The notes under the pieces: generated by a model
Told to the model about the DNA's origin: nothing
The model's database searches: none
Seen by the model: the letters and a program-made list of their open reading frames with translations, nothing else
From: Kiritimatiellia bacterium
GTDB lineage: Bacteria > Verrucomicrobiota > Kiritimatiellia > RFP12 > JAAYLN01
Assembly: GCA_028718445.1 (NCBI GenBank)
Contig: JAQULY010000002.1
Location: 1-36,847, forward strand
Direction of reading: 5' to 3'
DNA: 36,847 nucleotides
Shown here: piece by piece, positions 24,809 through 36,798 of the stretch
How the letters are laid out: each line of letters begins with the position of its first letter
Position numbering within the stretch: position 1 is the first letter of the stretch
Translations under genes and position numbers: made by a program

Positions 24809-24821
24809 ACTCTTCTCTTTG

Positions 24822-24897
24822 GCCGAACGGTCGGCATGAGCCACTCGGTAAAACGCGCGGCGCGTTTCACCGAGTAGGCTCCGTGCCGTGGTTAGCC
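24822..24897 (-). repeat. attC site
   Basis: Cores GCCGAAC (24822-24828) and GTTAGCC (24891-24897) flank a strong hairpin: GGCA, GAGCC, ACTCGGT and AAACGCGC pair with GCGTTT, ACCGAGT, GGCTC and TGCC, with single-base bulges. It belongs to the metallophosphoesterase cassette. Confidence 0.85.
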
Positions 24898-24974
24898 GGT
24901 TCTCGTGCCACCGGTCGCATCATTCCGACGCGACGTCCCGATGGGCTGCCGGCACGAACTCGGGCTCGGGGCCG

Positions 24975-25712
24975 TCACTGGGGCCCGGGCCCGGCTGTCA
25001 CACCTGTGCGCTCTTGGATCCACCACTCGACGTGTGGCATGTCGGTAGCGCGCGCCGCCTGAATTGCCGCGTCTACGTCCGGGAGTGTCCTTCGCAGTTC
25101 GAGCCGCAACGTCCGATTGCGCCACTCCGCAACGGCATACTCCGCCCACGGAGGGTTCTTCGGGGCGCCCACGCTACCCGGGTTCAGAATCGTGATGTCT
25201 CGATGGCGCCTGAGCATCTGCGTATGTGTGTGCCCGACCGCGATCACAGACGCCGCACATCCACAGAGAAGCCGGTCAACGTCACCTTCTGCAGTGGTAG
25301 CGGAGATGCTCTCTTCATTCGAGCTCGGCGACGCATGGAAGCACGCAAGATCTGCGCTGCCGGTAGGCATGCCAAGGCACAGCTCCGCGGTATGCGGTAG
25401 TGTGCGAAGGTACGCCAGATGCTCAGCGCCTACCTGAGCAGCACCCCACGACTGAATATCGGCTATGCGCCTGCCTCGCTCATCCTTGACGTTCCGGGGT
25501 CGGGGCGATAGCAGCCATGCATCCATATTGCCCAAGACGATGGAACCATGGAGTTCCCGCAGCCGAGAGATCACTTGGCTCGGCTGTGGACCGGACGTTG
25601 CGAGATCGCCAAGGCAGACTATCTTGTCGATCTCCTCGTTCGCCAGCTCGGCGAGAACGGCCTCTAGAGCGACCAGATTCCCGTGAATGTCCGAGAGAAT
25701 CCCGATGCGCAC
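24975..25712 (-). CDS. Metallophosphoesterase of the YfcE/DUF899-independent calcineurin type (cassette gene)
   Basis: The 245-residue protein shows the calcineurin-like phosphoesterase motifs in order: ILSDIHGN (metal ligands D8 and H10), CLGDLATSGPQP (D36), LGNMDAWLL (N62), a histidine in the ACFHASPS segment, VGHTHTQML and LNPGSVGAP. It should be a soluble two-metal phosphodiesterase or phosphatase; the closest groups are YfcE-like phosphodiesterases and the Ap4A-type or 2',3'-cNMP enzymes, and the substrate cannot be read from sequence. The start is GTG at 25712, immediately before the conserved RIGILSD, with GGGGGTAG upstream. About 75 bases separate its stop from the attC. Confidence 0.88.
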   Translation of the reverse strand: MRIGILSDIHGNLVALEAVLAELANEEIDKIVCLGDLATSGPQPSQVISRLRELHGSIVLGNMDAWLLSPRPRNVKDERGRRIADIQSWGAAQVGAEHLAYLRTLPHTAELCLGMPTGSADLACFHASPSSNEESISATTAEGDVDRLLCGCAASVIAVGHTHTQMLRRHRDITILNPGSVGAPKNPPWAEYAVAEWRNRTLRLELRRTLPDVDAAIQAARATDMPHVEWWIQERTGVTAGPGPQ

Positions 25713-25729
25713 GTTGCTACCCCCTGTTC

Positions 25730-25800
25730 ATGCTGCGCCCATGCCCACCGGACTCGCACGCTATCGCTCTGGAGTGGCGGGGGACGCGCCCCAATTCGCT
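25730..25800 (-). repeat. Degenerate attC candidate
   Basis: A site is expected here between two cassettes. GCGCCC-type left arm and a right end CCCAATTCGC (ATT in place of GTT) can be paired only imperfectly. The HAD gene's stop codon lies inside it, as in other cassettes. Confidence 0.3.
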
Positions 25801-26387
25801 GTCTGTCTTTCTGTTTGCTGTCCGGAGCCTCGAGTGAGGACCTGCTCAGTGGCCTCGCGAATGCCGTCGACGACGATCGTCTGCACTGGGAGGTCTGCAC
25901 GATGCTTCATCCCATGGCCAGAAAGAAGATATATGCCCGTGGCTTCCACCCGCGTGGCAAGCTCGACATCATGAGGGTGATCCCCGATAACGAAGGAGCG
26001 TCGAAGGTCTATGCCGAACTCCCGTTCCGCCTTCTTCAGGAAGTAGGGGTTCGGTTTGATGCACTGGCAGTCGGAGTAACGTTGGTGAGGGCAGACGTAA
26101 GTTGCAGCAATCGGAGCACCATTGATCGCGAGGTACTTCTCGACGTAATCATTCACCCGCTGCACATCCTCGATGGTGATCGTGCCTTTGGCTACACCAG
26201 ATTGGTTCGTCACGACGAACAAAGCGAACTTCTCAGCCAGGCGACGAAGCGCTGGGACCGTATCTTTGAAAAACACCACTTGCGCCGGGTCCGATAGATC
26301 GCCGCGATCCTCGATAATGGTACCGTCACGGTCTAGGAACACGGCAGCGCGAGGATGTTCTTGTCGATTGCTTGCTTGGGTTGGCAT
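25761..26387 (-). CDS. HAD-IIIA phosphatase, GmhB-like (cassette gene)
   Basis: The 208-residue protein is a HAD-superfamily phosphatase of the histidinol-phosphatase / D,D-heptose 1,7-bisphosphate phosphatase group. Motif I is FLDRDGTI with D19 and D21, motif II is VVTNQSG, a zinc-binding loop has C-x-H with two further cysteines (CPHQRYSDCQC), followed by KPNP and motif IV IGDHPHDVELA. It should be soluble and remove a sugar phosphate, perhaps in LPS heptose synthesis, but a stray cassette copy could have another substrate. The ATG at 26387 has GGAGG six bases upstream. The final 23 or so residues (from RGSGQQTE) are probably encoded by the attC-derived region and are unlike the family end. 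Confidence 0.88.
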   Translation of the reverse strand: MPTQASNRQEHPRAAVFLDRDGTIIEDRGDLSDPAQVVFFKDTVPALRRLAEKFALFVVTNQSGVAKGTITIEDVQRVNDYVEKYLAINGAPIAATYVCPHQRYSDCQCIKPNPYFLKKAEREFGIDLRRSFVIGDHPHDVELATRVEATGIYLLSGHGMKHRADLPVQTIVVDGIREATEQVLTRGSGQQTERQTANWGASPATPER

Positions 26388-26398
26388 TATTGTCCTCC

Positions 26399-26468
26399 GG
26401 TTAACGTTGCCGTTGAAGGTTCGCCCGGAGCGCAGTGGAGGGCGATACCTTCCGACGGCTGGTTCGAA
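26399..26468 (-). repeat. attC site
   Basis: Cores GGTTAAC (26399-26405) and GTTCGAA (26462-26468). Arms GCCGT, GAAGGT and CGCCC pair with GGGCG, ACCTTC and ACGGC, with small bulges on one side. The stop of the next gene is six bases beyond. Confidence 0.85.
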
Positions 26469-26474
26469 CCTCTG

Positions 26475-26831
26475 TCATTTCAGCAATCGCCCCACGAGTT
26501 CCGAAAGGAACTCCTTCACCGAGTCGAGGTTCATTACATATCCGATGAGGAGAAGGGCAATCGAGTAGAGGACGAACAGTAGCCGCTTGGCGATGCGTAG
26601 CGCCCTTCTGTGCGGTCGCTTCTCCTCCAGGTACTCTGTTCCCGCTTGCCTAATGCCAGCGATGCAGGCGTTTCCGCATTCGTCCACGGAACCGATCACG
26701 AGCCCGCTATGAACAAGTTCACACGCGATCTCGTTGGCGAGTTGGTTGCCATGGTAGCCGAGGCCGGTCCCTTCGCGCACAGAAGATGCTTCGCGAAGAA
26801 TTTGACACCTGATCTGTTCCTCGTCAGTCAT
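26475..26831 (-). CDS. Winged-helix-like protein with C-terminal membrane anchor (cassette gene)
   Basis: A 118-residue protein. Residues 1-75 have the pattern of a small winged helix (QIRCQILREAS, GNQLANEIACELVHSGLVIG, IAGIRQAGTEYLEEKRP), similar to domains used for DNA or protein contacts. Residues about 86-107 form one membrane span (LLFVLYSIALLLIGYVM), followed by a short amphipathic tail. The function is unknown. The start at 26831 lies three bases from the attC, so its message has hardly any leader of its own and no Shine-Dalgarno is seen. The longer frame to 26915 crosses the attC and is rejected. Confidence 0.7.
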   Translation of the reverse strand: MTDEEQIRCQILREASSVREGTGLGYHGNQLANEIACELVHSGLVIGSVDECGNACIAGIRQAGTEYLEEKRPHRRALRIAKRLLFVLYSIALLLIGYVMNLDSVKEFLSELVGRLLK

Positions 26832-26833
26832 AG

Positions 26834-26894
26834 TTCGAACGCTCGGCCTCTGGGGCGGCGCGTTAGCGACGTACCCAGCAGGCCGTGGTTCGGC
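26834..26894 (-). repeat. attC site
   Basis: Cores TTCGAAC (26834-26840) and GTTCGGC (26888-26894). Outer arms CGGCCT and CTGGG pair with CCCAG and AGGCCG; the loop contains GCGTTAGCG. At 61 bp it is near the minimum size for attC. Confidence 0.8.
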
Positions 26895-26948
26895 CTGCAT
26901 TCCATTCTGACGCATGAGTGCCCTGATCCCTCATGCCCCTTGTCTGTA

Positions 26949-27383
26949 TCATCTGAAGAAGGGGCTATTCACCCGGGGAGTCTCGGGGTAAAAGACCCAC
27001 CGCCCTCGTCTTATGACAAAGCACAATCCCGAGTCACTTGTTTTGACAAAGGCCATTCTCTTGAAGTTCTGGCAGGAAACCGACCGTACGTCACCCATCG
27101 CGGACGAGGACGGGTAACCACGGCCGAACTTCTTGGCAATGTCAAAGCCGTAGGCCTCATTCATCAGTTGCGCGTGAGCCTCTGTATCATGTCTCCAGCC
27201 TTCTCTCATGGAGTCGAGAACCGATTCCGCAGTGCTGTACTTGGCCTTCATTTCTGCCGTGAAGTACTTCTCTTCGTACGGGTAGTCGCCCTCGCAAGGG
27301 GGCTTGAGTTCAAGCCAGCAGACGATGCCCGTGACCACAAGCACCAAGACGACCGTACCGACAATCCTGCCACCCCTCTTCAT
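26949..27383 (-). CDS. Hypothetical membrane-anchored protein (cassette gene)
   Basis: A 144-residue protein I do not recognise. An N-terminal membrane segment (about 8-25, GTVVLVLVVTGIVCWL) precedes a soluble domain with EEKYFTAEMKAKYSTAESVLDSMREGW, probably a short helical stretch, and a beta-rich end. It is likely an inner-membrane-anchored periplasmic protein. The ATG at 27383 has GGGGAGG seven bases upstream; the longer frame to 27458 would translate the attC hairpin. A spacer of about 55 bp lies between the stop and the attC. Confidence 0.7.
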   Translation of the reverse strand: MKRGGRIVGTVVLVLVVTGIVCWLELKPPCEGDYPYEEKYFTAEMKAKYSTAESVLDSMREGWRHDTEAHAQLMNEAYGFDIAKKFGRGYPSSSAMGDVRSVSCQNFKRMAFVKTSDSGLCFVIRRGRWVFYPETPRVNSPFFR

Positions 27384-27397
27384 TTCGTTCCTCCCCA

Positions 27398-27475
27398 GCC
27401 GAACGTTAACCTTGATGCGATGAGGAACCCGCGCCCGGCGCGGGTTCCGAAGTCGCATCCGAGGTTTGGTTCGCC
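27398..27475 (-). repeat. attC site, partly coding
   Basis: Cores GCCGAAC (27398-27404) and GTTCGCC (27469-27475). Arms AACC, GATGCGA and GGAACCCGCG pair with CGCGGGTTCC, TCGCATC and GGTT. The gene to the right reads into this site and stops inside it. Confidence 0.88.
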
Positions 27476-28167
27476 TTCTTGTATTCCTCGTCAGTCACCA
27501 TTGTTGCCCACCCTCGGTGCTCGTCGCCTCTACCAGGAGCCACCGTACGAAGTGTCATATCTGCACGCGGTACAATCGCCGCAAATGGAAGTCGGTGTGT
27601 TGCGTGGATGTTGTCATACAGATCAAGGTGGATGTGCCCATCTGAGCATCGCTCACAGAGGGTTCCTATTGCGCTGATGTAAGTGTGGCAGTCCTGCCGG
27701 AACTTCTTCCCCTTCCCGAACCTGTGTGTTCCGAAAGCGACAGGTTCGTCCGGTTCTTTCGGGAGATGGATGTCTATGGATTCGCAACCGTACATGGCCG
27801 CAAGTAACTCATATGGTTCGATTCCGTGGAATGGAGCGGGCCGCGCGTCGTAAAGGACCAGAATCCCGGGACATTTCCCCGCCGCCAAGTGCTTGATCTG
27901 CTGCCGCGCCGATTCAATCTCACGTCGGACGCGACGGCCGACTGTGTCACCCCACGTGACAATCTCTCCTGGCCCATGTTTTGCCTTCCACTCGGCAACG
28001 ACCTTCGCTTCCTCGCAATTTGGAGTCAGTTCTTTGATTTCTATGTACATCAAGGCCCCCCCGACAGTGATCTCGTAGTCGGGCGTCGGCGAACCGTCCG
28101 GAGACAGTCGCCGGAAGGCGATCTGCCCACGCTGACAGAAAACCTCAAATAGCGTCTCCGATTTCAT
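27406..28167 (-). CDS. Hypothetical protein with PD-(D/E)XK-nuclease-like N-terminus (cassette gene)
   Basis: A 253-residue soluble protein. Near the N-terminus E8, PD30YE and YIE43IK45 form the spacing E...D-x12-E-x-K of PD-(D/E)XK nuclease folds, with beta strands around them (DYEITVGGALMYIEIKEL). The middle part contains GILVLYDARPAPFHG, and a pair of cysteines in TLCERCSDG recalls a metal site. It may be a nuclease or a recombination-linked protein, but this rests on one motif. The ATG at 28167 is chosen (AGAAGAG upstream, just outside the attC); the longer frame to 28281 crosses the attC. The last 23 residues (from about ANQTSD) are encoded by the attC hairpin. Confidence 0.65.
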   Translation of the reverse strand: MKSETLFEVFCQRGQIAFRRLSPDGSPTPDYEITVGGALMYIEIKELTPNCEEAKVVAEWKAKHGPGEIVTWGDTVGRRVRREIESARQQIKHLAAGKCPGILVLYDARPAPFHGIEPYELLAAMYGCESIDIHLPKEPDEPVAFGTHRFGKGKKFRQDCHTYISAIGTLCERCSDGHIHLDLYDNIHATHRLPFAAIVPRADMTLRTVAPGRGDEHRGWATMVTDEEYKKANQTSDATSEPAPGAGSSSHQG

Positions 28168-28175
28168 CTCTTCTT

Positions 28176-28253
28176 GGCGAACGCTGAGCGTGACCCTCGG
28201 TTCAGCCGGCGTCCTCGCCGGGTGAACCGTAGTGGTCCACGCTCTTGTTCTGC
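28176..28253 (-). repeat. attC site of the RiPP cassette
   Basis: Cores GGCGAAC (28176-28182) and GTTCTGC (28247-28253). Arms GAGCGTG, ACC, CGGTTCA and CCGGCG pair with CGCCGG, TGAACCG, GGT and CACGCTC, giving one of the best hairpins in the array. The precursor-peptide stop codon lies seven bases to the right, so radical SAM gene, peptide and this site form one cassette. Confidence 0.9.
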
Positions 28254-28259
28254 CGTGCT

Positions 28260-28553
28260 TCAGTCCGTCCAGTCGCCCCATTCCCTATGATCGTCATATT
28301 CCGTATGTGTCGTATTGTCCGTGTGGTGAGGACTTTCGCTGTACTCGTGGTGCTCTTCGTATGGTACATCCGTGTGATCGCTATGCTCATCCCAGCCGTG
28401 CGGCGATAACGCCCTGATTCGCGGACAGCGCGCGAGAGCACGCCGAACATGCCGGTTCCCGATCCGGCTGAAGTCAACGGTAACACCCAAGCCGGGTAGT
28501 TTCGCAAGGCCTACAAGACGGTCACACTCGGCTCGTGTCTGTCTAGGTCTCAT
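28260..28553 (-). CDS. Candidate RiPP precursor peptide with twelve aromatic-X-acidic triplets
   Basis: A 97-residue peptide encoded directly behind a radical SAM/SPASM gene, overlapping it by 11 bases, with its own strong GGAGG seven bases before the ATG. Residues 1-52 look like a leader (basic, with LPGLGVTVDFSR). Residues 54-97 are built almost only of triplets aromatic-X-Asp/Glu starting at W54, H57, H60, Y65, H68, Y71, H77, H83, Y86, H89, W92 and W95, the last ending at the C-terminus. Three-residue cyclophane (triceptide) precursors carry such aromatic-X-X motifs, where a radical SAM enzyme joins the ring of residue 1 to the beta-carbon of residue 3. That this peptide is such a substrate is inference from motif and coupling. 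No protease or transporter is in the cassette. An acidic, metal-binding peptide without modification is the alternative. Confidence 0.8.
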   Translation of the reverse strand: MRPRQTRAECDRLVGLAKLPGLGVTVDFSRIGNRHVRRALARCPRIRALSPHGWDEHSDHTDVPYEEHHEYSESPHHTDNTTHTEYDDHREWGDWTD

Positions 28554-29652
28554 TCCCTACCTCCGCGTTTCTTAGTTCCTTTTGCAGTACTGCCCGTACG
28601 TGAGTGAATAACCGATGATACATGGGGCAGTACGGATCCTTGCCCAAGGCATCACCAGCCGTCCATGCGTTGTGCAGACACCCGCCTTTGCATTGGTCGC
28701 TGACCACGCAATCGCTGCATTCGAGGATGTTCTTCGCGTTGCGTCCCAGGAGGCGCTGGTGAACCGAAGAGCCGTAGGCGTCAGTGACGCCATTCGGCGT
28801 GTTTACGTTGCCCATCCACATAGACTTCACGCCGTCGAATCTCCCACAGGGATAGATATCCCCCAATGGTCCTACCGATACGTACCGCTCCCTGCAATTC
28901 CCCGCGTGGTTGCATCCGACTGAACATCCACTGGCCACGCTCCCAATGAAGTCGACAAACGGATCAACCGACACCATCGAGTCGCTCTGCATCCAGTAGT
29001 TGAAAAGGTCGTGAAGCGCTGCGGCAGCCTCGGTAGGATCGATGTCGTATTCGCCATGTCTTGCACGTCCACTTCGAATCAACGGATTTACCTTGAAACC
29101 GATACGTTCCTCATTGAAGAACTGCAGCACTTGCTTCATATCAGCGATGTTAGCTTTGGACAGTACGACGATAACGCCACCGCCAAGATGTCGCGTCCTG
29201 CTATTCCGCTCGCGCGTCATCCTGATTGCGCGCAGCGTGTCATTGAATGAGCTCGCCCCAGTCGCGTACGGTCGAGTGCGATCATTGATACGTTGAGGAC
29301 CGTCAAGGCTGAAGCCAAGCCGGAAATCGTCAACGTCGCTCACAAAATCGAGGAAGTCCGGGCCGAGGAGGGTGCCGTTCGTCTGAATCGCGTTGGTCAC
29401 GTGATAGCCGCGCTTCTTCAGGCTGGCGGTTATGTCGGCGACGAATTCAAAGAACGCGATGCCGCAAAGGAGCGGTTCGCCCCCATGCCAAATAAAGTGG
29501 GCACGGTGGTCATGCGAGTGGCGAGCGAAGCCTTCCATGACGTTGAGTGCAGTGCGTTCATCCATACGCCCCCGCTCGGCGCCGGGCTCAATGTAGCAGT
29601 AGCCGCAGCGTAGATTGCAGTCGTGAGTCGGTTTGGCTATGACAGTGATCAT
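28543..29652 (-). CDS. Radical SAM/SPASM peptide maturase (cassette gene)
   Basis: The 369-residue enzyme has the radical SAM cluster motif CNLRCGYC (C12, C16, C19) right at the N-terminus, FIWHGGEPLLCG (SAM-binding GGE), the IQTNGTLL strand and SLDGPQRINDRTRP. A C-terminal SPASM/twitch region with cysteine groups follows (GCSVGCNHAGNC, GDIYPCGRFDG, ECSDCVVSDQCKGGC, DPYCPMY) for two auxiliary 4Fe-4S clusters. This is the layout of anaerobic sulfatase maturases and of cyclophane-forming RiPP maturases such as GrrM, XyeB or FxsB. With a coupled triplet-rich peptide and no sulfatase nearby, the RiPP role is preferred. No RRE leader-binding domain is visible. It opens a two-gene cassette 17 bases from the upstream attC. 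Confidence 0.9.
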   Translation of the reverse strand: MITVIAKPTHDCNLRCGYCYIEPGAERGRMDERTALNVMEGFARHSHDHRAHFIWHGGEPLLCGIAFFEFVADITASLKKRGYHVTNAIQTNGTLLGPDFLDFVSDVDDFRLGFSLDGPQRINDRTRPYATGASSFNDTLRAIRMTRERNSRTRHLGGGVIVVLSKANIADMKQVLQFFNEERIGFKVNPLIRSGRARHGEYDIDPTEAAAALHDLFNYWMQSDSMVSVDPFVDFIGSVASGCSVGCNHAGNCRERYVSVGPLGDIYPCGRFDGVKSMWMGNVNTPNGVTDAYGSSVHQRLLGRNAKNILECSDCVVSDQCKGGCLHNAWTAGDALGKDPYCPMYHRLFTHVRAVLQKELRNAEVGNET

Positions 29653-29668
29653 TGTGTCTCATTCGTGG

Positions 29669-29731
29669 GCAGAACGTTCACGGCGCACCAACGGCTCGAT
29701 CAGCGCCGTTCGGTGTCGCCGCTGGTTAGGA
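29669..29731 (-). repeat. attC site
   Basis: Cores GCAGAAC (29669-29675) and GTTAGGA (29725-29731). Arms GGCG, CACC and ACGGC pair with GCCGTT, CGGTG and CGCC. The TAA stop of the neighbouring small gene (29726-29728) lies within the right core. Confidence 0.85.
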
Positions 29732-29914
29732 TTTCTTCTCTCTTATTGTAAACACAAAGGCAAGCAGACCAAAACAAATTGACAAAAGCAATGAACCCAA
29801 ACAAATCATATACCCACCTTCTTGTGCTGTCGGGGCATATGTCGTTGCCGATGCCAACACATAGATAATGGTCATAAATAACCATAAAACGCCAAATGTG
29901 TTTCGTGTTGTCAT
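29726..29914 (-). CDS. Small two-span membrane protein (cassette gene)
   Basis: A 62-residue protein with two membrane segments (about 7-26 and 35-57) joined by a short loop with TAQEGG, ending in the basic REKKS. It has no homologue I recognise. The ATG at 29914 is supported by AGGAG eight bases upstream; that AGGAG overlaps the core of the neighbouring attC. Its AT-rich codons differ from the GC-rich chromosome to the left. The stop codon is part of the next attC core. Confidence 0.65.
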   Translation of the reverse strand: MTTRNTFGVLWLFMTIIYVLASATTYAPTAQEGGYMICLGSLLLSICFGLLAFVFTIREKKS

Positions 29915-29922
29915 TGTTCTAC

Positions 29923-29992
29923 TCCTAACGTCACGCCTCAGTTTCGGTTTTGCCGCCGCGGCAAAACCGTAAACTGGAGGCGCTGGTTCGCA
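29923..29992 (-). repeat. attC site, partly coding
   Basis: Cores TCCTAAC (29923-29929) and GTTCGCA (29986-29992). Arms GCCTC, AGTTT and CGGTTTTGCC pair with GGCAAAACCG, AAACT and GGAGGC. This is the most regular hairpin of the array. The gene to the right reads into it and stops at 29938. Confidence 0.92.
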
Positions 29993-30237
29993 GTTTCTCT
30001 TCCTCCGTCCTTCTCAGGCTCATTGAGCCAAGGCTCCAGTGTTGCCCGATTCCTTGCCACAAATGACTGATCGACTTCCCTGATCGCCGCTGAATAGCCA
30101 GAGGCCACGTAGTAGCTTCCGCAGTCAACGCACTGCATCAGGAGTTCCTGGGTTTCTCCCAGTGTGCCCAAGTGCTTGATGGAAGCAGCTCCGTAGTTGA
30201 TGCGGTTGTCCTTCGTTCTGCAATTCCTGCAGCTCAT
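29938..30237 (-). CDS. Small zinc-ribbon-like protein (cassette gene)
   Basis: A 99-residue protein with two CxxC pairs, C3-R-N-C6 at the N-terminus and C36-V-D-C39, about 30 residues apart, which suggests a zinc ribbon. No catalytic motif or membrane span is seen and the function is unknown. AGGA lies upstream of the ATG at 30237. The last 18 or so residues (from about NQRLQF) are encoded by the attC hairpin, so they are probably not part of the folded domain. Confidence 0.6.
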   Translation of the reverse strand: MSCRNCRTKDNRINYGAASIKHLGTLGETQELLMQCVDCGSYYVASGYSAAIREVDQSFVARNRATLEPWLNEPEKDGGRETANQRLQFTVLPRRQNRN

Positions 30238-30250
30238 GCTCTGTTCCTGC

Positions 30251-30313
30251 TGCGAACGTTACGCCTCTCTCTGAGCGAGCTTGCGAGCGATAGAGTGAAG
30301 GCGGTTGTTCGCA
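30251..30313 (-). repeat. attC site
   Basis: Fully complementary cores TGCGAAC (30251-30257) and GTTCGCA (30307-30313). Inner arms ACGCCT, CTCT and GCGAGC pair less regularly with GAGCGAT, AGAG and AGGCGGT. The stop of the next gene is four bases away. Confidence 0.8.
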
Positions 30314-30316
30314 CTT

Positions 30317-30910
30317 TTATAGTCTAAATCGATATAGAAATACTTTGTTTTGGGTTTCATTGGCAATAAGCAAAAGAAAGCTGTCGTCCCCGGTTTTATA
30401 GATATGAACGGGCTCAATATCATAACCTCGTGCCTGATCGATAATCTTTTGTTCTAGGGAGTCGGTTCGCTTTGGGTCTATTTCATAGGGCTTAAATTCT
30501 CGGTTAGCTAAGACCTTATTAAAGTCCAAGGGATCAATTGAGAAAACAATGATCTCATAGCCACCAGCCATAGCGACATAGCCATGATCGTCAATGATCT
30601 TCACGCTCTCAGGAATGGGATCAAGAAGAAGCCGTTCGAACCTACCTGCTCCAGTATAAGTATAGTGTGTGCTAACACCAAGGTGGATCGACCAAGCTGT
30701 AATGCCGATAACGATTAGTGCATATCTGACCCACTCTGGACATCTACAAACCTTCAAGAGGAACCACAGCACCAGTGTACAGACAGCAGCTTGGATGAAA
30801 AAAACTGGAGCCGCAAAAAATGCAAAACCAGGGTCAAAGAGACTGTAGACTGCTCCTGGTACGCAGCACAAGGCGATGAGGATAAGTAACTTTTTGAATT
30901 TTGTTTTCAT
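30317..30910 (-). CDS. Hypothetical three-span membrane protein (cassette gene)
   Basis: A 197-residue protein with three hydrophobic segments (about 8-25, 33-53, 62-80), followed by a soluble domain of about 110 residues (LLLDPIPESVKIIDDHGY, FLLLIANETQNKVFLYRF). The function is unknown. The gene is clearly richer in A and T than the genes to its left and the SPase-like gene to its right, a sign of a separate origin. The ATG at 30910 is chosen because the longer frame to 30958 begins inside the attC. Confidence 0.7.
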   Translation of the reverse strand: MKTKFKKLLILIALCCVPGAVYSLFDPGFAFFAAPVFFIQAAVCTLVLWFLLKVCRCPEWVRYALIVIGITAWSIHLGVSTHYTYTGAGRFERLLLDPIPESVKIIDDHGYVAMAGGYEIIVFSIDPLDFNKVLANREFKPYEIDPKRTDSLEQKIIDQARGYDIEPVHIYKTGDDSFLLLIANETQNKVFLYRFRL

Positions 30911-30919
30911 TATATTTGT

Positions 30920-30982
30920 TGCGAACGCGAGAATTATGGTTTTGGCGCGTAGCGACAAATACCGTGCATTTTCTGGTTGGCA
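30920..30982 (-). repeat. attC site, fair
   Basis: Cores TGCGAAC (30920-30926) and GTTGGCA (30976-30982) match at six of seven positions. Inner pairing is weaker: AGAA, ATG and GGT with ACC, CAT and TTCT plus bulges. Position and length fit the neighbouring sites. Confidence 0.65.
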
Positions 30983-30986
30983 GATC

Positions 30987-31235
30987 CTATTTCATCTTGC
31001 CCACCGCATCAATGACTGCGAACACCCATCCGGCTCCGAGCAACACGACAAATCCGCTGAACAAGACGACCAGCGACCAGAAAACGGCTGGGTTCTGATC
31101 TCTTCGGCACACCCGTGTGGAGTCGGTGTGCCGGATTGCTCCGGTCGTGACCCCTTGGATCACTGTCTTGCCCAGGAACCATCCCAGCCCTCCGGTAACG
31201 GCTGTGACCACAATTAATCTGATGATCTGTATCAT
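30987..31235 (-). CDS. Small two-span membrane protein (cassette gene)
   Basis: An 82-residue protein with two membrane segments (about 5-22 and 51-75), a hydrophilic loop between them with RHTDSTRVCRRDQNP and a basic end. Its function is unknown. AGATGAG precedes the ATG at 31235. It starts 21 bases after the stop of the lipoprotein gene without any attC between, so both belong to one cassette and are probably translated from one message. Confidence 0.65.
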   Translation of the reverse strand: MIQIIRLIVVTAVTGGLGWFLGKTVIQGVTTGAIRHTDSTRVCRRDQNPAVFWSLVVLFSGFVVLLGAGWVFAVIDAVGKMK

Positions 31236-31256
31236 CTCATCTGTTCTTGTTCGAAA

Positions 31257-32249
31257 TCATAGTCTTATCTCAATGTGAATGTCGTCATCTTCGTCACGCT
31301 TCTGCTGATCGTCCTCCGTTGGGGAACGGTATGACAGAGGAACACGGGGGCGTTGTAGGGTCAGGAGCATGAGCGAGGTCGCGTAGACTCGGGTTTCATC
31401 TGCACTCATGCCCTTGATCTCCGGCATGTCGGGAACACCCATACTTTCGGGTGTCCACCAGCCGAGAGTCTTCCTCTGGACCTGCCTCTCCACAAGATCA
31501 GGATAGAATCGACGGTTCCATTCCTGCCAGTCTTTCCCCCCGACCTGATATAGGGCCAAGGAAAGAACGAAAGCCGTCTGTAGGGGTGTTGTCCCGTGAC
31601 GCCAGTTCGCCGGGTCTTGACGCCGAAGGCGCTCAAGATACGGCGCGAACTGCTCGCCGCCCACAGTCCACATCATCAGGAGCAATTGGGCCGCCTGACC
31701 GAGGAGAGTGCCATCGGCTTGTGCAGCATAGGTGGTCGTCAACTCGGAAAGCATCCGCTTTCCGGCGGCTGGGTCTGCGCCGGAGAGATAGAGGGCGTGC
31801 GCCGCGAAGATATTCCATGAAGATGGCGATCCTGTATCCAGCAATGCGTTCTCCTTGCGCACTGCATCAAGCAATATCGGAAGCCCTGTAAGACCGTAGG
31901 CCTCCGCAAGACACCATGTCAGCAGAGATCGATCAACCGGGGAGAGGTGGCTAGATTCTTGTGTTGCGCCAAGAAGTGCGCGAAGTCCGTTCTCGACGGT
32001 CTTGCCATAGTCGTTTGACGCTGGAGTCTCCCCGTGGGCTAGAAAGGCAAGCGTTGCTAGGCTCGTCAGAGCCATGCGGCGGTCATCGGTTCCCCAGTAT
32101 CCGTCAGCGCGCTGCGCGCGGGCGAGCCACGACAGACCTCTGCTTGAAGCCGACCATGTGCGGACAGTGCCTTCGGGAATTGGCATCCTATCAGATGTAC
32201 AGGACGAAGCGAGCGTGGCAATGATTAGGATTGGCAGTATCGTCTTCAT
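31257..32249 (-). CDS. Lipoprotein with prenyltransferase/squalene-cyclase-type repeats (cassette gene)
   Basis: A 330-residue protein with a lipoprotein signal (MKTILPILIIATLASSC, Cys17). The body is helical with repeats of the prenyltransferase/squalene-oxidase type: GLSWLARAQRADGYWGTDDRRMALTSLATLAFLAHG and ENGLRALLGATQ near the start. No catalytic DxDD motif is seen, so a binding role is more likely than cyclisation. The end has an acidic run (EDDQQKRDEDDDIHIEI). The ATG at 32249 is chosen for its signal peptide; the longer frame to 32300 would put residues before it. It shares its cassette with the small membrane protein at 30987. Confidence 0.7.
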   Translation of the reverse strand: MKTILPILIIATLASSCTSDRMPIPEGTVRTWSASSRGLSWLARAQRADGYWGTDDRRMALTSLATLAFLAHGETPASNDYGKTVENGLRALLGATQESSHLSPVDRSLLTWCLAEAYGLTGLPILLDAVRKENALLDTGSPSSWNIFAAHALYLSGADPAAGKRMLSELTTTYAAQADGTLLGQAAQLLLMMWTVGGEQFAPYLERLRRQDPANWRHGTTPLQTAFVLSLALYQVGGKDWQEWNRRFYPDLVERQVQRKTLGWWTPESMGVPDMPEIKGMSADETRVYATSLMLLTLQRPRVPLSYRSPTEDDQQKRDEDDDIHIEIRL

Positions 32250-32292
32250 TTCGAACGGGTGGGCGCCGGACGAAGTCAGCTCATTGTTGGCT
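32250..32292 (-). repeat. Degenerate attC candidate
   Basis: Cores TTCGAAC (32250-32256) and GTTGGCT (32286-32292) are present at the expected place, but only 43 bp apart and with little inner pairing. It may be a deleted attC, in which case this junction would no longer recombine. Confidence 0.35.
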
Positions 32293-32296
32293 TTCC

Positions 32297-33415
32297 TCAT
32301 TCTCCTTCAAGTGCGTTGACTCTTGTGAACGGCCAGTAGATGCGTGTTGCTCTGCCGATGATGTTCTTTTCCGGTACGGCACCCCAGTATCGACTGTCAC
32401 GACTGTTTTCGGTGTTGTCGCCAAGGACGAAGTACTCCTCGTGCCCCAGTGTTATCTCATCAGTGGGCTTCGACAGAAGACCACCGATAGAGGCAACGTG
32501 AACTGCAAGCTGGAATCCGGCGTAGCCGCCGGATAAGCTCGAGATGGTGTTGAATATCTCCGGCACGGTCACTTTCCGATCGTTCACGATCAGGAATGGT
32601 GGCTCGATCCTGATGCGCTCACCAGGAAGCCCGGCGACACGCTTGATGTAGAACGTATTGGGGGGAAGGCTTTCTATTCCGTCAGTACGGAAAACAACGA
32701 TGTCGCCTCGCTTCGGTTTGCTGAAGCGATACGATAGTCGTTCGACAAACAAGTGGTCTCCGGCGACCACTACACCCGACCAAAGTCTCTCCCCGGCGGA
32801 TACATGCTCCCCGGGTTGCTTAGTTGGCCGCGCGAAGCGCGGCAACTCATGTTGCTGGGAGCCGATCGCGTACACCCAGCGGAATGGCGTGTCCTGTGAG
32901 GGACGGGGCGCGGACAGCACACCGCTGGAACAGGCCTCAACCTCGACATACCGCTGGCCAGAAACAAGCCACTGAACCATGCCTGGCTTCTCTGAGGAAT
33001 CCGCGGGCACAGCGTGCCCGTGGATTCCGAAGATCGTTGGCTGCATTGCGCCATTCGGAACCTTGAACGGGTGAACGAACTGGCGCACAAGAAGACTCAA
33101 GCCGTTGTTCAGAACGACGGCCAAGACGATGACGGCAAGCCAGCCGAGAACCCCGATCCGTCGGACGGGTCGGTACGACTGTTTGAGCATCACCAACCAC
33201 AGAACCACGCTCGCGAGACCGAAGGCCACGCCGAGGATAAACGGGACAATGCCCGGCGTCGCGACAAGCAGAAGTGCGACAACGCCGCAGGCGAAGAGGC
33301 CGAAGTACCACTTCAGACCGGCGGCACACCTGCCGGAAAGAAGATGCGCGGAGCCGTGGAGCAGGAAGCCCAGCACCACGCCAACCCACTTGCGATATGG
33401 CGGTTTCTCGTTCAT
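32297..33415 (-). CDS. Signal-peptidase-I-like membrane protein with Ser-to-Ala at the nucleophile position (cassette gene)
   Basis: A 372-residue protein. Residues 1-115 form about four membrane spans; then come the SPase I boxes: FKVPNGAMQPT (box B, where the usual sequence is VPSGSMxPT), a long insertion, KRGDIVVFRTDG (box C), FYIKRVAGLPGE (box D with the catalytic lysine) and VLGDNTENSRDSRYWG (box E). All boxes are conserved except that the nucleophilic serine is A123 (codon GCA at 33047-33049). The enzyme may therefore be inactive, or use another residue. Two GC-rich palindromes lie inside the coding sequence in the insertion. TTG at 33418 is a possible alternative start; no Shine-Dalgarno precedes either. 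It follows copy 1 of the long direct repeat. Confidence 0.82.
   Translation of the reverse strand: MNEKPPYRKWVGVVLGFLLHGSAHLLSGRCAAGLKWYFGLFACGVVALLLVATPGIVPFILGVAFGLASVVLWLVMLKQSYRPVRRIGVLGWLAVIVLAVVLNNGLSLLVRQFVHPFKVPNGAMQPTIFGIHGHAVPADSSEKPGMVQWLVSGQRYVEVEACSSGVLSAPRPSQDTPFRWVYAIGSQQHELPRFARPTKQPGEHVSAGERLWSGVVVAGDHLFVERLSYRFSKPKRGDIVVFRTDGIESLPPNTFYIKRVAGLPGERIRIEPPFLIVNDRKVTVPEIFNTISSLSGGYAGFQLAVHVASIGGLLSKPTDEITLGHEEYFVLGDNTENSRDSRYWGAVPEKNIIGRATRIYWPFTRVNALEGE
32827..32843. repeat. Short palindrome inside the SPase-like gene
   Basis: GCCGCGC-GAA-GCGCGGC, encoding part of LPRFARPTK in the insertion between boxes B and C. It shares the CGCGAAGCGCG core with the element at 3613-3650. Confidence 0.7.
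32996..33028. repeat. 15-bp-arm palindrome inside the SPase-like gene
   Basis: GGAATCCGCGGGCAC (32996-33010) and GTGCCCGTGGATTCC (33014-33028) flank AGC, with one G/T wobble. It encodes HGHAVPADSS just after box B, where SPases normally have no such segment. Confidence 0.75.
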
Positions 33416-33431
33416 CAAATGGAGCCATCAA

Positions 33432-33796
33432 CATCTCAATATGCGTCAAACATAGCAGCAACAATAGCAGGTTGTGGGTGGGATAAGCGTCAAAGGGTGC
33501 GTTGATTTCCAGTGAGTAACGAGGCGGGGTTGGTGCATATCAGGAGTGCTATGGGGATCTGCTATGCGACAACGGCGTACCGGGTGGGCGCCGGTGGGTC
33601 TCGGATTGCGCGGTAATGAGAGGCTCCTTGGTGGTGAGGATAGGACCGGAAGATGTGAGGGTCAAGATGGAAAACGGCGCCATCGCCCGATGGGCTACGG
33701 CGCGGAAGGGCGGGCAGGGAGTAGGACGGCTTGGCCGGTATCGCAATGTCATCGGGCCGGCTTGCCCAACTGACGTTTCGCGGCGCCTTGGGGATG
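33432..33796. repeat. Long direct repeat, copy 1
   Basis: About 365 bp that recur at 35403-35767 in the same orientation, offset by 1971 bp, about 93% identical by eye. It ends 16 bases before the SPase-like start codon. The short open frames inside it exist on both strands in both copies, but the differences change residues in every frame, so I see no sign of coding. On the minus strand TTTGACGCATATTGAGATG near its end may hold promoter elements. Confidence 0.85.
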
Positions 33797-34007
33797 AAGG
33801 GAAGTGGCGGGGCAGATAGAGGGCAGGAGTCCGAATGGGGTGGCGTGACGGTGGATGACGGCTATTTGTTAGCTTCAGGGCTGACCCTGACGACCCTCGT
33901 GCCGTACTAGGCCGGCATCGAGGGCAAGGGGACGAAGGGGCAGAGATGGTTGATCGACGAAGAGGACACAGGGGGCCATTTTGGGAACGGAGGGGCTGTT
34001 GGGGGCG
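33797..34007. other. Non-coding spacer between repeat copy 1 and ankyrin gene
   Basis: No gene is seen. GGCCATTTTGGGAACGGAGG (33972-33991) and CTATTTGTTAGCTTCAGGG (33862-33880) each have a close match in the corresponding spacer of copy 2 (35848-35867; 35879-35897), so the duplicated unit is longer than the aligned 365 bp and has suffered insertions or deletions. GTTAGCG at the ankyrin stop codon could be an attC core, but I cannot find its partner. Confidence 0.5.
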
Positions 34008-34709
34008 TTAGCGGGAGTTTGCAGGGATGACCACTTGATGAGTGACCCCGCCGCCAACGCCTGGCCCCCGATATCCGATTGACACCTCACCGGTATTTCC
34101 ATTCTTCACTTTCTGCACCAGCTGCAGAGCCCAGTCTGGATACGGTGGATCTCCTCGACTACCAGGGCGGCAACCTACTGACACAAGGTATGCCGCCATC
34201 TCTCTATTATCACGCATAACCATATAATCAAGAGGTGTTCTGCGGAAATAATCTTCTCGGCTAATATCGACCCCACATGCCAGAGCGAACTCAATAATCG
34301 CAAGCGCCTTTTGTTGAGTCTGTGGAGACGATATCATGGAAGCCCAATCAATTAGTCCGCGACCACAGTCATCTACAGCATCAACCCTAGCACCATGCTT
34401 GTGGAGCGTCGCCACGCATTCAGGTGTAACAGCCTTTAGTATTGGAGTGCTTCCGTGGCCATTTCTGATCTCAATGTCGGCGCCCTGCGCGATCAGGAAA
34501 ACCATTGTCTCTTCATCGCCATGCAACGCGACCCAATGCAAGGCTGTATCGCCAAATTTGCCCCTAGCGTTCACGTCGTCACCACGCTTCACCAGTGCAC
34601 GTACCTTTTCTGCGTCGCCACGACACGCCGCATCAACCAGTTCCGTTTCGGGCCTACCACAGCCCACCGTCACAAGCACCATCACATTCAGTAGCAGCAA
34701 TCTCATCAT
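34008..34709 (-). CDS. Ankyrin-repeat lipoprotein (cassette gene)
   Basis: A 233-residue protein with a lipoprotein-type signal (MMRLLLLNVMVLVTVGC). Ankyrin repeats follow from about residue 22: LVDAACRGDAEKVRALVKRGDDVNARG, GDTALHWVALHGDEETMVFLIAQGADIE, GSTPILKAVTPECVATLHKHGARVD, and a longer unit with RRTPLDYMVMRDNREMAAYLV. Ankyrin repeats bind proteins; as a lipoprotein it would act in the periplasm or at the surface. No catalytic part is seen. The start at 34709 (or ATG 34706) is chosen for the signal; the longer frame to 34817 would translate the attC. The stop TAA is followed by CGCC as at other cassette ends. Confidence 0.78.
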   Translation of the reverse strand: MMRLLLLNVMVLVTVGCGRPETELVDAACRGDAEKVRALVKRGDDVNARGKFGDTALHWVALHGDEETMVFLIAQGADIEIRNGHGSTPILKAVTPECVATLHKHGARVDAVDDCGRGLIDWASMISSPQTQQKALAIIEFALACGVDISREDYFRRTPLDYMVMRDNREMAAYLVSVGCRPGSRGDPPYPDWALQLVQKVKNGNTGEVSIGYRGPGVGGGVTHQVVIPANSR

Positions 34710-34741
34710 CGTCCACCACGCGGTCCCACCATTGTCTCTCT

Positions 34742-34824
34742 GTCCCGCCACCTTCCCCTCTGCGCTCTCCGTCAACTCTTTCCAGGTCGCGGGCAAGTTG
34801 TACGTGAGGAGCGCCATGTTGGGA
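34742..34824 (-). repeat. attC site, fair
   Basis: The right core GTTGGGA (34818-34824) is four bases from the lipoprotein stop. The left core is degenerate: GTCCCGCC where GTCCCAAC would be complementary. Inner arms GCGCTC and CAACT pair with AGTTG and GAGCGC. Its right half resembles that of the site at 36719. Confidence 0.6.
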
Positions 34825-34827
34825 CTC

Positions 34828-35388
34828 CTATTTGTATCCTCCGGCTTTCAGGCAGAAGAATGCCTTGGTCGTCTGATTGCTGCACAATGGATTCGTTTCG
34901 AAGGAGACGTGCAGTTGGTACTTCTCTCCTGTTTCTGGCGTAAAGAGGGTGCCCGACGGGGCACCCGTCTTCTTGTCAAAGACGAGGTAGTAATAGGAGA
35001 CCCAAGTATCTCCACCTCCATACGCGCACGTCCAAGGGGCAATGTTCGTCCGGATGTTCCAGACGGTTTGTCCTTTGGAATCCGTGAGCTGCGCAGAAAT
35101 CACAGAGTCGTCCAAGAACGGCAATCTCTCGGAACCTTGCGCTGAAAGGTAAAGAGCATAGTCATCTTTGCAGGGTGGAACGTTGGAACATGTGTAGGTC
35201 CTGTCAAAATTGGACGAGATGGGGAAGGTGTCGAATGTCAAAGCAACGCCATCGATCCCCAGAAGAGGTCCTTTGACAAATTGGATCGTCCCATCTCCAT
35301 GATAGCGGGAGACTTCCTTCTGAAGATCACACGACATGAGGCAGCACGTCGAAGCGAGGACGAAAAGTGTTTTCGCGGTCCATTTCAT
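34828..35388 (-). CDS. Hypothetical lipoprotein (cassette gene)
   Basis: A 186-residue protein with a clear lipoprotein signal (MKWTAKTLFVLASTCCLMSC, lipobox LMSC, Cys20). The body is beta-rich with three further cysteine groups (YTCSNVPPC, PWTCAYGGGD, NPLCSNQ) that may form disulfides, which fits an extracytoplasmic protein. I do not recognise the family. It lies directly downstream (on the minus strand) of copy 2 of the long direct repeat, 14 bases from its end, as the SPase-like gene does with copy 1. Confidence 0.7.
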   Translation of the reverse strand: MKWTAKTLFVLASTCCLMSCDLQKEVSRYHGDGTIQFVKGPLLGIDGVALTFDTFPISSNFDRTYTCSNVPPCKDDYALYLSAQGSERLPFLDDSVISAQLTDSKGQTVWNIRTNIAPWTCAYGGGDTWVSYYYLVFDKKTGAPSGTLFTPETGEKYQLHVSFETNPLCSNQTTKAFFCLKAGGYK

Positions 35389-35402
35389 TATCTCTATTGT
35401 CC

Positions 35403-35767
35403 CATCTCAATATGCGTCACAAATAGCAGTGAAGATAGCAGGACGTGGGTGGGATAAGCGTCAAAGGGGGTGTTGATTTTCAGTGAGTTACGAGGCGGGG
35501 TTGGTGCATATCAGGAGTGCTATGGGGATCTGCTATGCGACAACGGCGTACTGGGTGGGCGCCGGCGGGTCTTGGATTGCGTGGTAATGAGAGGCTCCTT
35601 GGTGGTGAGGATAGAACCGGAAGATGTGAGGGTCAAGATGGAAAACGCCGCCATCGCCCGATGGGCTACGGCGTGGAAGGGCGGGCGGGGATTAGGACGG
35701 CTAGGCCGGTATCGCAATGTCATCGGGCCGGCTTGCGCAACTGACGTTTCGCGGCGCCTTTGGGGGT
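35403..35767. repeat. Long direct repeat, copy 2
   Basis: Second copy of the 365-bp repeat (see 33432-33796). Shared landmarks are CATCTCAATATGCGTCA at the left end, GGTGGGATAAGCGTCAAAG, CAGGAGTGCTATGGGGATC and CAACTGACGTTTCGCGGCG near the right end. The spacer from 35768 to 35968 shows no gene and contains further fragments shared with the spacer next to copy 1. Confidence 0.85.
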
Positions 35768-35968
35768 GGAGAGAAGGGGAGCGGGAATGGGGTGGAGCGA
35801 AAGGAAGGTGTCCCCGCCACCTAAGGGGTCGAAGGCGGAACAGGGGGCATTTTGGGAACGGAGGGGGCGTTCACGTCGCTATTTGCTATTTTCAGGGACG
35901 ACCCCGACGCCCCGAGGTTACGAGGTCGCGTGCATGGGCCTTGTTGTGCTTCTCTGCCTTCTTTCATC

Positions 35969-36289
35969 TCAGACCATGAGGAGGAGTAACAGTAGGTACG
36001 CCGCCAGCAAGCCGATCGGCAGCACTGGACTACCGGCCTCCTCTTTCGTGACAGCGACCCGCCAGGCGACACAGCCGACAACTACCGCCACGATCGCGGC
36101 GAGTTCGAGTGCATAGCCCGTTCGGAGATATCCATCGCTTGCTGTTCTCGCCACCGCCCGAAGCGCCTGGTCACCTGCAATTGCCTTGGCTCTCACCAAG
36201 GTGGCGCTGCCGTAGCACCACTTGGCCAGCCCTTCCATAGTGAGTGCCACTGCCAATGATACGCGGCAAGTTGTCCGTGGGCGTTTCAC
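35969..36289 (-). CDS. Hypothetical two-span membrane protein (cassette gene)
   Basis: A 106-residue protein whose first half is basic and helical (MEGLAKWCYGSATLVRAKA) and whose second half has two membrane spans (about 56-73 and 88-106), ending in LLLLLLMV. The function is unknown. The start is taken as GTG at 36289, ten bases from the attC; ATG 36241 (residue 17) is an alternative. The supporting evidence is the cassette position and hydrophobic pattern only. Confidence 0.5.
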   Translation of the reverse strand: MKRPRTTCRVSLAVALTMEGLAKWCYGSATLVRAKAIAGDQALRAVARTASDGYLRTGYALELAAIVAVVVGCVAWRVAVTKEEAGSPVLPIGLLAAYLLLLLLMV

Positions 36290-36299
36290 TTCATTCTTT

Positions 36300-36362
36300 G
36301 CACAACGTCCGGACTCTGCCTGAGCCGCGCTAGCGGCGATAGGCAGGAGGCCGTGGTTCGGA
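36300..36362 (-). repeat. attC site
   Basis: Cores GCACAAC (36300-36306) and GTTCGGA (36356-36362). Arms CGG, CTGCCT and GCCGC pair with GCGGC, AGGCAG and CCG; the loop is GCTA. The lipoprotein stop is two bases further right. Confidence 0.88.
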
Positions 36363-36364
36363 CC

Positions 36365-36709
36365 TCATTTCTGTTCCCCAATGATCTGCCGATCTTTCGT
36401 AATGTCGATCTCGGCATGGTTCCCGTATGCACCGCCGCCACCGGTCACATAGCCGAAGTTCGTTGTCATCGATGTGCCGTCAACCAGTCGGACATCAACC
36501 TGAAATCCGCTGTCATGCTTGACTGAGAAGCGTCCCGATTTCGATCCGGCGTCAGGAATGTCGCTGAAGCGATGACTCTCACCACACACGGTCACGAGGA
36601 CCTCTTGCGCGGTGACCCCCGAGTTGTTGGTGACGACCATCTCGTTTGACACCTTCGCGCATGACGCGAGGGCCAGACAGGCAACTAGCGTGACAAAGGT
36701 TCTTCTCAT
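36365..36709 (-). CDS. Hypothetical small lipoprotein (cassette gene)
   Basis: A 114-residue protein with a lipoprotein signal (MRRTFVTLVACLALASC, lipobox LASC, Cys17). The mature part is a single small beta-rich domain (VVTNNSGVTAQEVLVTVCG, FQVDVRLVDGTSMTTNFGYV). The family is not recognised. AGGAAGAG precedes the ATG at 36709. It fills its cassette almost completely: 9 bases from the attC on the start side and 2 bases on the stop side. Confidence 0.75.
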   Translation of the reverse strand: MRRTFVTLVACLALASCAKVSNEMVVTNNSGVTAQEVLVTVCGESHRFSDIPDAGSKSGRFSVKHDSGFQVDVRLVDGTSMTTNFGYVTGGGGAYGNHAEIDITKDRQIIGEQK

Positions 36710-36718
36710 CTCTTCCTG

Positions 36719-36789
36719 TCCGAACGTCCACGCTCTCCCTCACCTTGACCGTCCGCGGCAAGGTGTAGGTGAGTAGCGTGTTGTTGGGC
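36719..36789 (-). repeat. attC site
   Basis: Cores TCCGAAC (36719-36725) and GTTGGGC (36783-36789). Arms CACGCT and CTCACC (or CACCTTG) pair with GGTGAG (or CAAGGTG) and AGCGTG, so two pairing registers are possible. Confidence 0.85.
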
Positions 36790-36798
36790 CATCTTGCC

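Follow-up and report, generated by a model that had tools for sequence, protein, structure and literature searches.

The maturase and small peptide genes described here probably constitute a self-contained, two-gene, triceptide-like RiPP cassette, in which a precursor peptide is paired with a ring-forming radical SAM/SPASM maturase. They are found in the window, i.e., the entire 36,847-nucleotide stretch analyzed from a Kiritimatiellia bacterium; the cassette is integron-borne and its nearest relatives are archaeal. This reading is based on the gene pair itself, a homologous leader, the conservation of the triplet in homologs, an enzyme with the fold and cysteines of a peptide-modifying SPASM protein, the attC sites, and the position of the enzyme in the tree. 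A bolder, more tentative proposal is that of a new poly-cyclophane family, distributed in bacteria as well as small-genome archaea and disseminated on at least one occasion as an integron cassette. A single enzyme of this family would join Trp, His, or Tyr to Asp or Glu at up to 12-14 sites of one peptide, yielding a rigid, acidic, metal-ready ribbon. The features concerned are listed in Table 1.

Table 1. Positions of the features in the window, with the basis for each assignment.
Feature	Position	Strand	Basis
Radical SAM/SPASM peptide maturase, 369 aa	28543..29652	-	PF04055 6e-18, SPASM 0.0027
Precursor peptide, 97 aa	28260..28553	-	ORF list; leader HMM
Leader motif VTVDFSRIGNRHVRRALARC, residues 24-43, common to archaeal precursors	28425..28484	-	alignment, HMM
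Core, residues 54-97 (44 codons)	28263..28394	-	shuffle test; homologs
GGAGG ribosome-binding site of the precursor, within the maturase gene	28560..28564	-	read from sequence
Integron cassette of 1493 bp, 93% coding, bounded by G^TT on both sides	28182..29674	-	attC sites, GTT core sites
attC of the maturase/precursor cassette, starting right after the peptide stop codon	28174..28255	-	covariance model 48 bits; hairpin
attC of the adjacent cassette, setting the 5' boundary	29667..29733	-	covariance model 53 bits; hairpin
Cassette array, starting near 24.8 kb and reaching the end of the contig	24820..36791	-	hairpins and covariance model
Further attC sites in the array	24820-24899, 26397-26470 (weaker), 26832-26896, 27396-27477	-	
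Further attC sites in the array	29921-29994, 30249-30315, 36298-36364, 36717-36791	-	
Nuclease-like ORF of the neighboring cassette, PDY...EIK like PD-(D/E)xK nucleases	27406..28167	-	by eye

The precursor peptide and its triplet core

The precursor gene comes after the maturase gene, on the same strand and with an 11 nt overlap. Its core contains 12 [W/H/Y]-x-[D/E] triplets (WDE, HSD, HTD, YEE, HHE, YSE, HTD, HTE, YDD, HRE, WGD, and WTD), with Asp and Glu equally frequent at position 3. The first-pass annotation had located this core correctly, and described it as twelve in-phase triplets. All twelve exist, but nine is the best count in any single frame, since a two-residue VP insert offsets these nine from W54, H57, and H60, which form another frame. 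SPH and NTT are in-frame triplets devoid of the motif, and the aromatic residues H69 and H76 lie off triplet position 1.

Shuffling the 44 core residues 100,000 times gave on average 4.2 non-overlapping motifs (maximum 10), versus 12 in the actual peptide, and 2.6 single-frame motifs (maximum 8), versus nine. The order of the core residues is, thus, not explained by their composition. At the scale of the window ORF, Asp or Glu is found at +2 from His, Tyr, or Trp in 12 of 16 cases, for 3.2 expected. With no tandem DNA repeat detected in the core, the triplet register cannot be attributed to a recent duplication. The AlphaFold model of the precursor alone (pLDDT 55) is uninformative, except that residues 34-41 may form a helix in the leader.

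Upstream of the core, the leader roughly follows the consensus [IVL]-x-N-x-x-[LIV]-[RK]-[RK]-[AI]-[LIF], which reads ...RIGNRHVRRAL... in the window. The Asn (Asn33 in the window) is invariant across 11 aligned leaders, and two loci deviate from the consensus, L042 in its first residue and L132 in the basic pair. When 2832 ORF segments were ranked with a leader HMM built without the window, the window peptide came out on top, with an E-value of 7e-4 (2.9 for the next one), which supports precursor homology independently of the core.

Homologous pairs and conservation of the triplet

Homologs were collected from one scan of genome contigs, then from the phylum and two orders around the archaeal matches, all the homolog genomes being drafts. 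Among the matches listed, the closest relatives of the maturase originate from small-genome archaea (40-47% identity), and the enzyme of L032, in a genome labelled 'archaeon', is 46% identical over its full length and is followed by two small peptides. In at least eight archaeal loci (L032, L129, L130, L131, L132, L133, L140, and L158), the maturase directly precedes a triplet peptide with the same leader, L131 having two of them. The neighboring genes look archaeal; for example, the L133 pair adjoins a gene identified by eye as that of an elongation factor. The arrangement is the same in the Nitrospirae locus L042, while in Bacteroidales (L033, L036, L037, L038, and L121) and Ruminococcus (L041), triplet-rich peptides are located 5' of related enzymes.

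No triplet peptide was found near the weaker archaeal relatives L134-L139 (32-34% identity), and the homologous maturase of L141 is followed by a different protein. The latter (173 aa, reverse complement 1663-2184) contains a leader-like VRNPILKELA stretch and an HTKHSK segment, with a basic residue where the acid stands in the triplets. No close relative of the maturase was found in 193 genomes of its own class, nor a second copy in its own phylum or class, where only weaker relatives appeared, those checked being sulfatase maturases. Viral contigs, searched with the maturase alone, yielded no relative. The plasmid search yielded enzymes that are only 25-30% identical, and the three loci examined (L029-L031) are devoid of such a peptide.

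The register was assessed on ten homolog peptides, the window being left out. As the segments tested extend into the leader, the register signal is diluted by this choice rather than created by it. In the pooled homologs, Asp or Glu occupies the +2 position of His, Tyr, or Trp in 68 of 111 cases, versus 23.5 expected, a count reached in none of 5000 shuffles; acids are at chance level at +1, and depleted at +3. Their excess at -1 and +5 is due to the repetition of the triplets at a spacing of 3. For the Bacteroidales and Ruminococcus peptides, the +2 count is 30 of 43 (12.9 expected), and the L032b peptide, taken alone, has no motif excess. Position 2 accommodates 18 residue types in the homologs, in agreement with the earlier expectation that the triplet would be kept while this position varies; the refuting case set out in the first-pass annotation thus did not arise. 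Aromatic residues are spaced mostly by 3, but also by 4-6 residues, so conservation concerns the three-residue motif, rather than one unbroken frame. The window peptide has the longest unbroken run (five triplets), although L158 has a higher total number of motifs (14).

Other peptides of this kind were observed beside related enzymes. Bacteroidales precursors (L033 5228-5380, L036 5240-5395, L037 5224-5388, and L038 5122-5325) have a common YNDCHGDYYD core, with the radical SAM gene in 3'; those of them that were scanned (L033, L036, and L038) had no NCBIfam match. In Caldiserica, the tandem peptides of L040 (4679-4873 and 4874-5107), with Trp/Tyr triplets (WSDYNAWDNWDRN), are located 5' of a related radical SAM enzyme. 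Lachnospiraceae peptides (L044 209-379 and L059 5713-5877), also located 5' of related radical SAM enzymes, end with WGNHDDY[TS]HGY and contain a QNDEARSAL stretch resembling the leader motif. Finally, the protein encoded after the L131-type precursors in L144 (5655-6326) looks by eye like a C39-type cysteine peptidase, and is a possible leader protease.

An integron cassette

The first-pass annotation had missed the archaeal relatives, and also the integron cassette: the pair fills exactly one cassette, which, apart from its attC, contains only the maturase and precursor genes. The maturase start is located 22 nt after the recombination point. R''/R' core sites and a hairpin were found in the attC on both sides of the cassette, and the hairpins of the array, with their AAC...GTT core sites, sit 3' of stop codons. 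Ten aligned attC sites all carry a C before GTT, although this was not a search criterion. A covariance model built from the window attC sites detected 30 sites elsewhere in the genome that were not used for training (E<0.01), several of which are clustered in one orientation, for example, on contigs C229 and C416. The host genome, a draft (86.7% complete, 5.6% contaminated), encodes integron integrases (TIGR02249, 425 and 354 bits, for a cut-off of 265). The window spans an entire contig, on which there is no integrase; the integrase contig C595 carries an attC that aligns with the window's sites.

The nuclease-like ORF of the neighboring cassette has no Pfam or NCBIfam match, and was ruled out as a third partner of the system by the attC that lies in between. 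Elsewhere in the array, segments 33546-33910 and 35470-35979 are near-identical, as recognized from their translations in the ORF list, and the product of ORF 32297-33418 (minus strand) looks by eye like a signal peptidase I.

The archaeal origin of the nearest kin suggests a lateral transfer of the maturase/precursor pair, probably by capture across domains, the nearest relatives being two-gene operons of small-genome archaea. No attC was found in the archaeal homolog loci with the window-trained covariance model. Ghaly et al. 2022 (PMC9668308) described archaeal integrons, as well as a bacterial integron capturing cassettes that bear archaeal attC, which makes a transfer between archaea and bacteria plausible.

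The maturase and the competing explanations

The maturase contains the three radical SAM cysteines (12/16/19) and eight conserved auxiliary-cluster cysteines (247/253/269/312/315/321/325/342). A Foldseek search with its AlphaFold model (pLDDT 90) retrieved anSMEcpe first (TM 0.84), followed by ChlB, a peptide maturase, and 5why, which forms thioethers. anSMEcpe is the closest solved structure by sequence as well, and all of its radical SAM and auxiliary-cluster cysteines are found in the window enzyme. The best NCBIfam score is that of the dynobactin maturase DynA (NF041298), at 247 bits over the full length, for a cut-off of 450, while the XyeB, GrrM/OscB, FxsB, YhhB, and AmcB models gave 69, 93, 105, 123, and 96 bits (cut-offs 450, 310, 370, 445, and 425, respectively). 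The enzyme is, thus, below the curated cut-off of every known cyclophane maturase family. The gene pair and its homologs support the earlier proposal of a RiPP-type aromatic-x-acid core adjoining a cyclophane-type radical SAM/SPASM enzyme.

The likeness to the dynobactin maturase leaves room for His N-C bonds or other geometries. In the product of the dynobactin maturase, Trp and Asn are joined by an i/i+3 bond, and His and Tyr by a C-N bond (PMC11002830), and the related folds include thioether-forming enzymes. The pair could be a RiPP system with a chemistry other than three-residue carbon-carbon rings: bonds from His N to C-beta as in dynobactin, rings of larger size, or changes without crosslinking, such as epimerization or modification of Asp/Glu. 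This is less likely, as an acid conserved at exactly +2, with depletion at +3, corresponds to the triceptide geometry and not to i/i+3 rings.

The first-pass annotation had also evoked metal binding. His and acidic residues are dense in all members and Cys is present in several homolog cores, which would fit a His/Asp/Glu-rich metal-binding peptide, whose pairing with the maturase or triplet order would be incidental to any crosslinking. Such an explanation appears improbable, since composition alone does not produce the +2 register, and since a conserved leader, strict adjacency to a radical SAM/SPASM gene across genomes, and a sealed cassette point to a substrate and its enzyme.

Least probable of all, an ordinary anaerobic sulfatase maturase with the peptide as a chance neighbor, for which anSMEcpe and the roughly 30% identity with such enzymes in same-order genomes could argue, was ruled out by family scores (169 bits against TIGR03942, for a cut-off of 349 and 360-384 bits for the genuine same-order ones), by Gly270, which replaces the putatively catalytic Asp that follows the equivalent auxiliary-cluster Cys of anSMEcpe (YPCD motif), and by the tree, where the enzyme groups with L032 (support 94/77) and with L129/L140 (support 89/91), and the sulfatase maturases of the same order fall elsewhere; the peptide is, moreover, kept beside the enzyme in other genomes.

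Proposed mechanism and significance

For the preferred reading, a triceptide-like pair, the maturase would recognize the conserved leader of the precursor, then work along the core. By analogy with triceptide enzymes (PMC11002830), it would take a hydrogen, probably from the beta carbon of Asp or Glu, and couple this carbon to the aromatic ring located two residues before, so that the ring of the first triplet residue (Trp, His, or Tyr) would be joined to the side chain of the third. Repeated along the core, this coupling could link as many as twelve three-residue rings into a chain. The resulting peptide would be rigid, acidic, and His-rich, perhaps metal-binding or antagonistic.

The cyclophane chemistry class is already known. 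New are the triplet density, the use of three aromatic residues with Asp and Glu in equal measure, the family of leaders, the occurrence in archaea, and the carriage by an integron cassette, none of which is reported in the open-licence papers found, although the primary triceptide papers may include similar examples. In that literature, no report of a RiPP maturase-precursor pair in an integron cassette was found. If the proposal is correct, a single small enzyme builds numerous strained rings out of three kinds of aromatic residue and two kinds of acid, with a substrate range that is broader and more repetitive than those of the maturases described in that literature, and the natural precursors collected here offer a direct test of what the maturase accepts. 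Archaea would also gain a radical SAM peptide family with a recognizable leader and core. A complete pair in a 1.5-kb cassette would be a portable peptide-making unit, which bears on how such chemistry travels between archaea and bacteria.

Comparison with known systems

Like the window pair, the triceptide enzymes (XncB, OscB, MscB, YxdB, HaaB, and YhhB) are radical SAM/SPASM maturases adjoining a small precursor, with aromatic-x-x core motifs that include Tyr-x-Asp, Trp-x-Asp, and His/Tyr mixtures (PMC11002830). Precedents comprise Tyr-x-Asp for YxdB, His-x-Ala for HaaB, Tyr/His-x-Arg for YhhB, and Trp-x-Asn/Asp rings for OscB (PMC11002830). Mixed aromatics, which had been considered unusual, are not entirely new, as YhhB already acts on Tyr and His, and XncB on Trp and Phe (PMC11002830). 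Nevertheless, none of the published precedents compared places Glu at position 3 or combines three types of aromatic residue in one substrate. The window family differs by its 12-14 motifs, by combining Trp, His, and Tyr in one core, by Glu being about as frequent as Asp at position 3, and by its own leader motif and archaeal distribution, in addition to maturase scores below the XyeB, GrrM/OscB, FxsB, YhhB, and AmcB cut-offs.

The dynobactin maturase, the best full-length model, also modifies Trp and His/Tyr, but its short ring region, as described in PMC11002830, has no counterpart to the repetitive triplet core. anSMEcpe shares the fold and all the cluster cysteines, whereas Gly270, the score below the family cut-off, and the separate position in the tree set the window maturase apart. 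Finally, as in chromosomal and archaeal integrons, the cassette is compact, with attC on both sides, genes in one direction, and integrases in the genome; it differs from chromosomal integron cassettes in that it carries a maturase-precursor pair.
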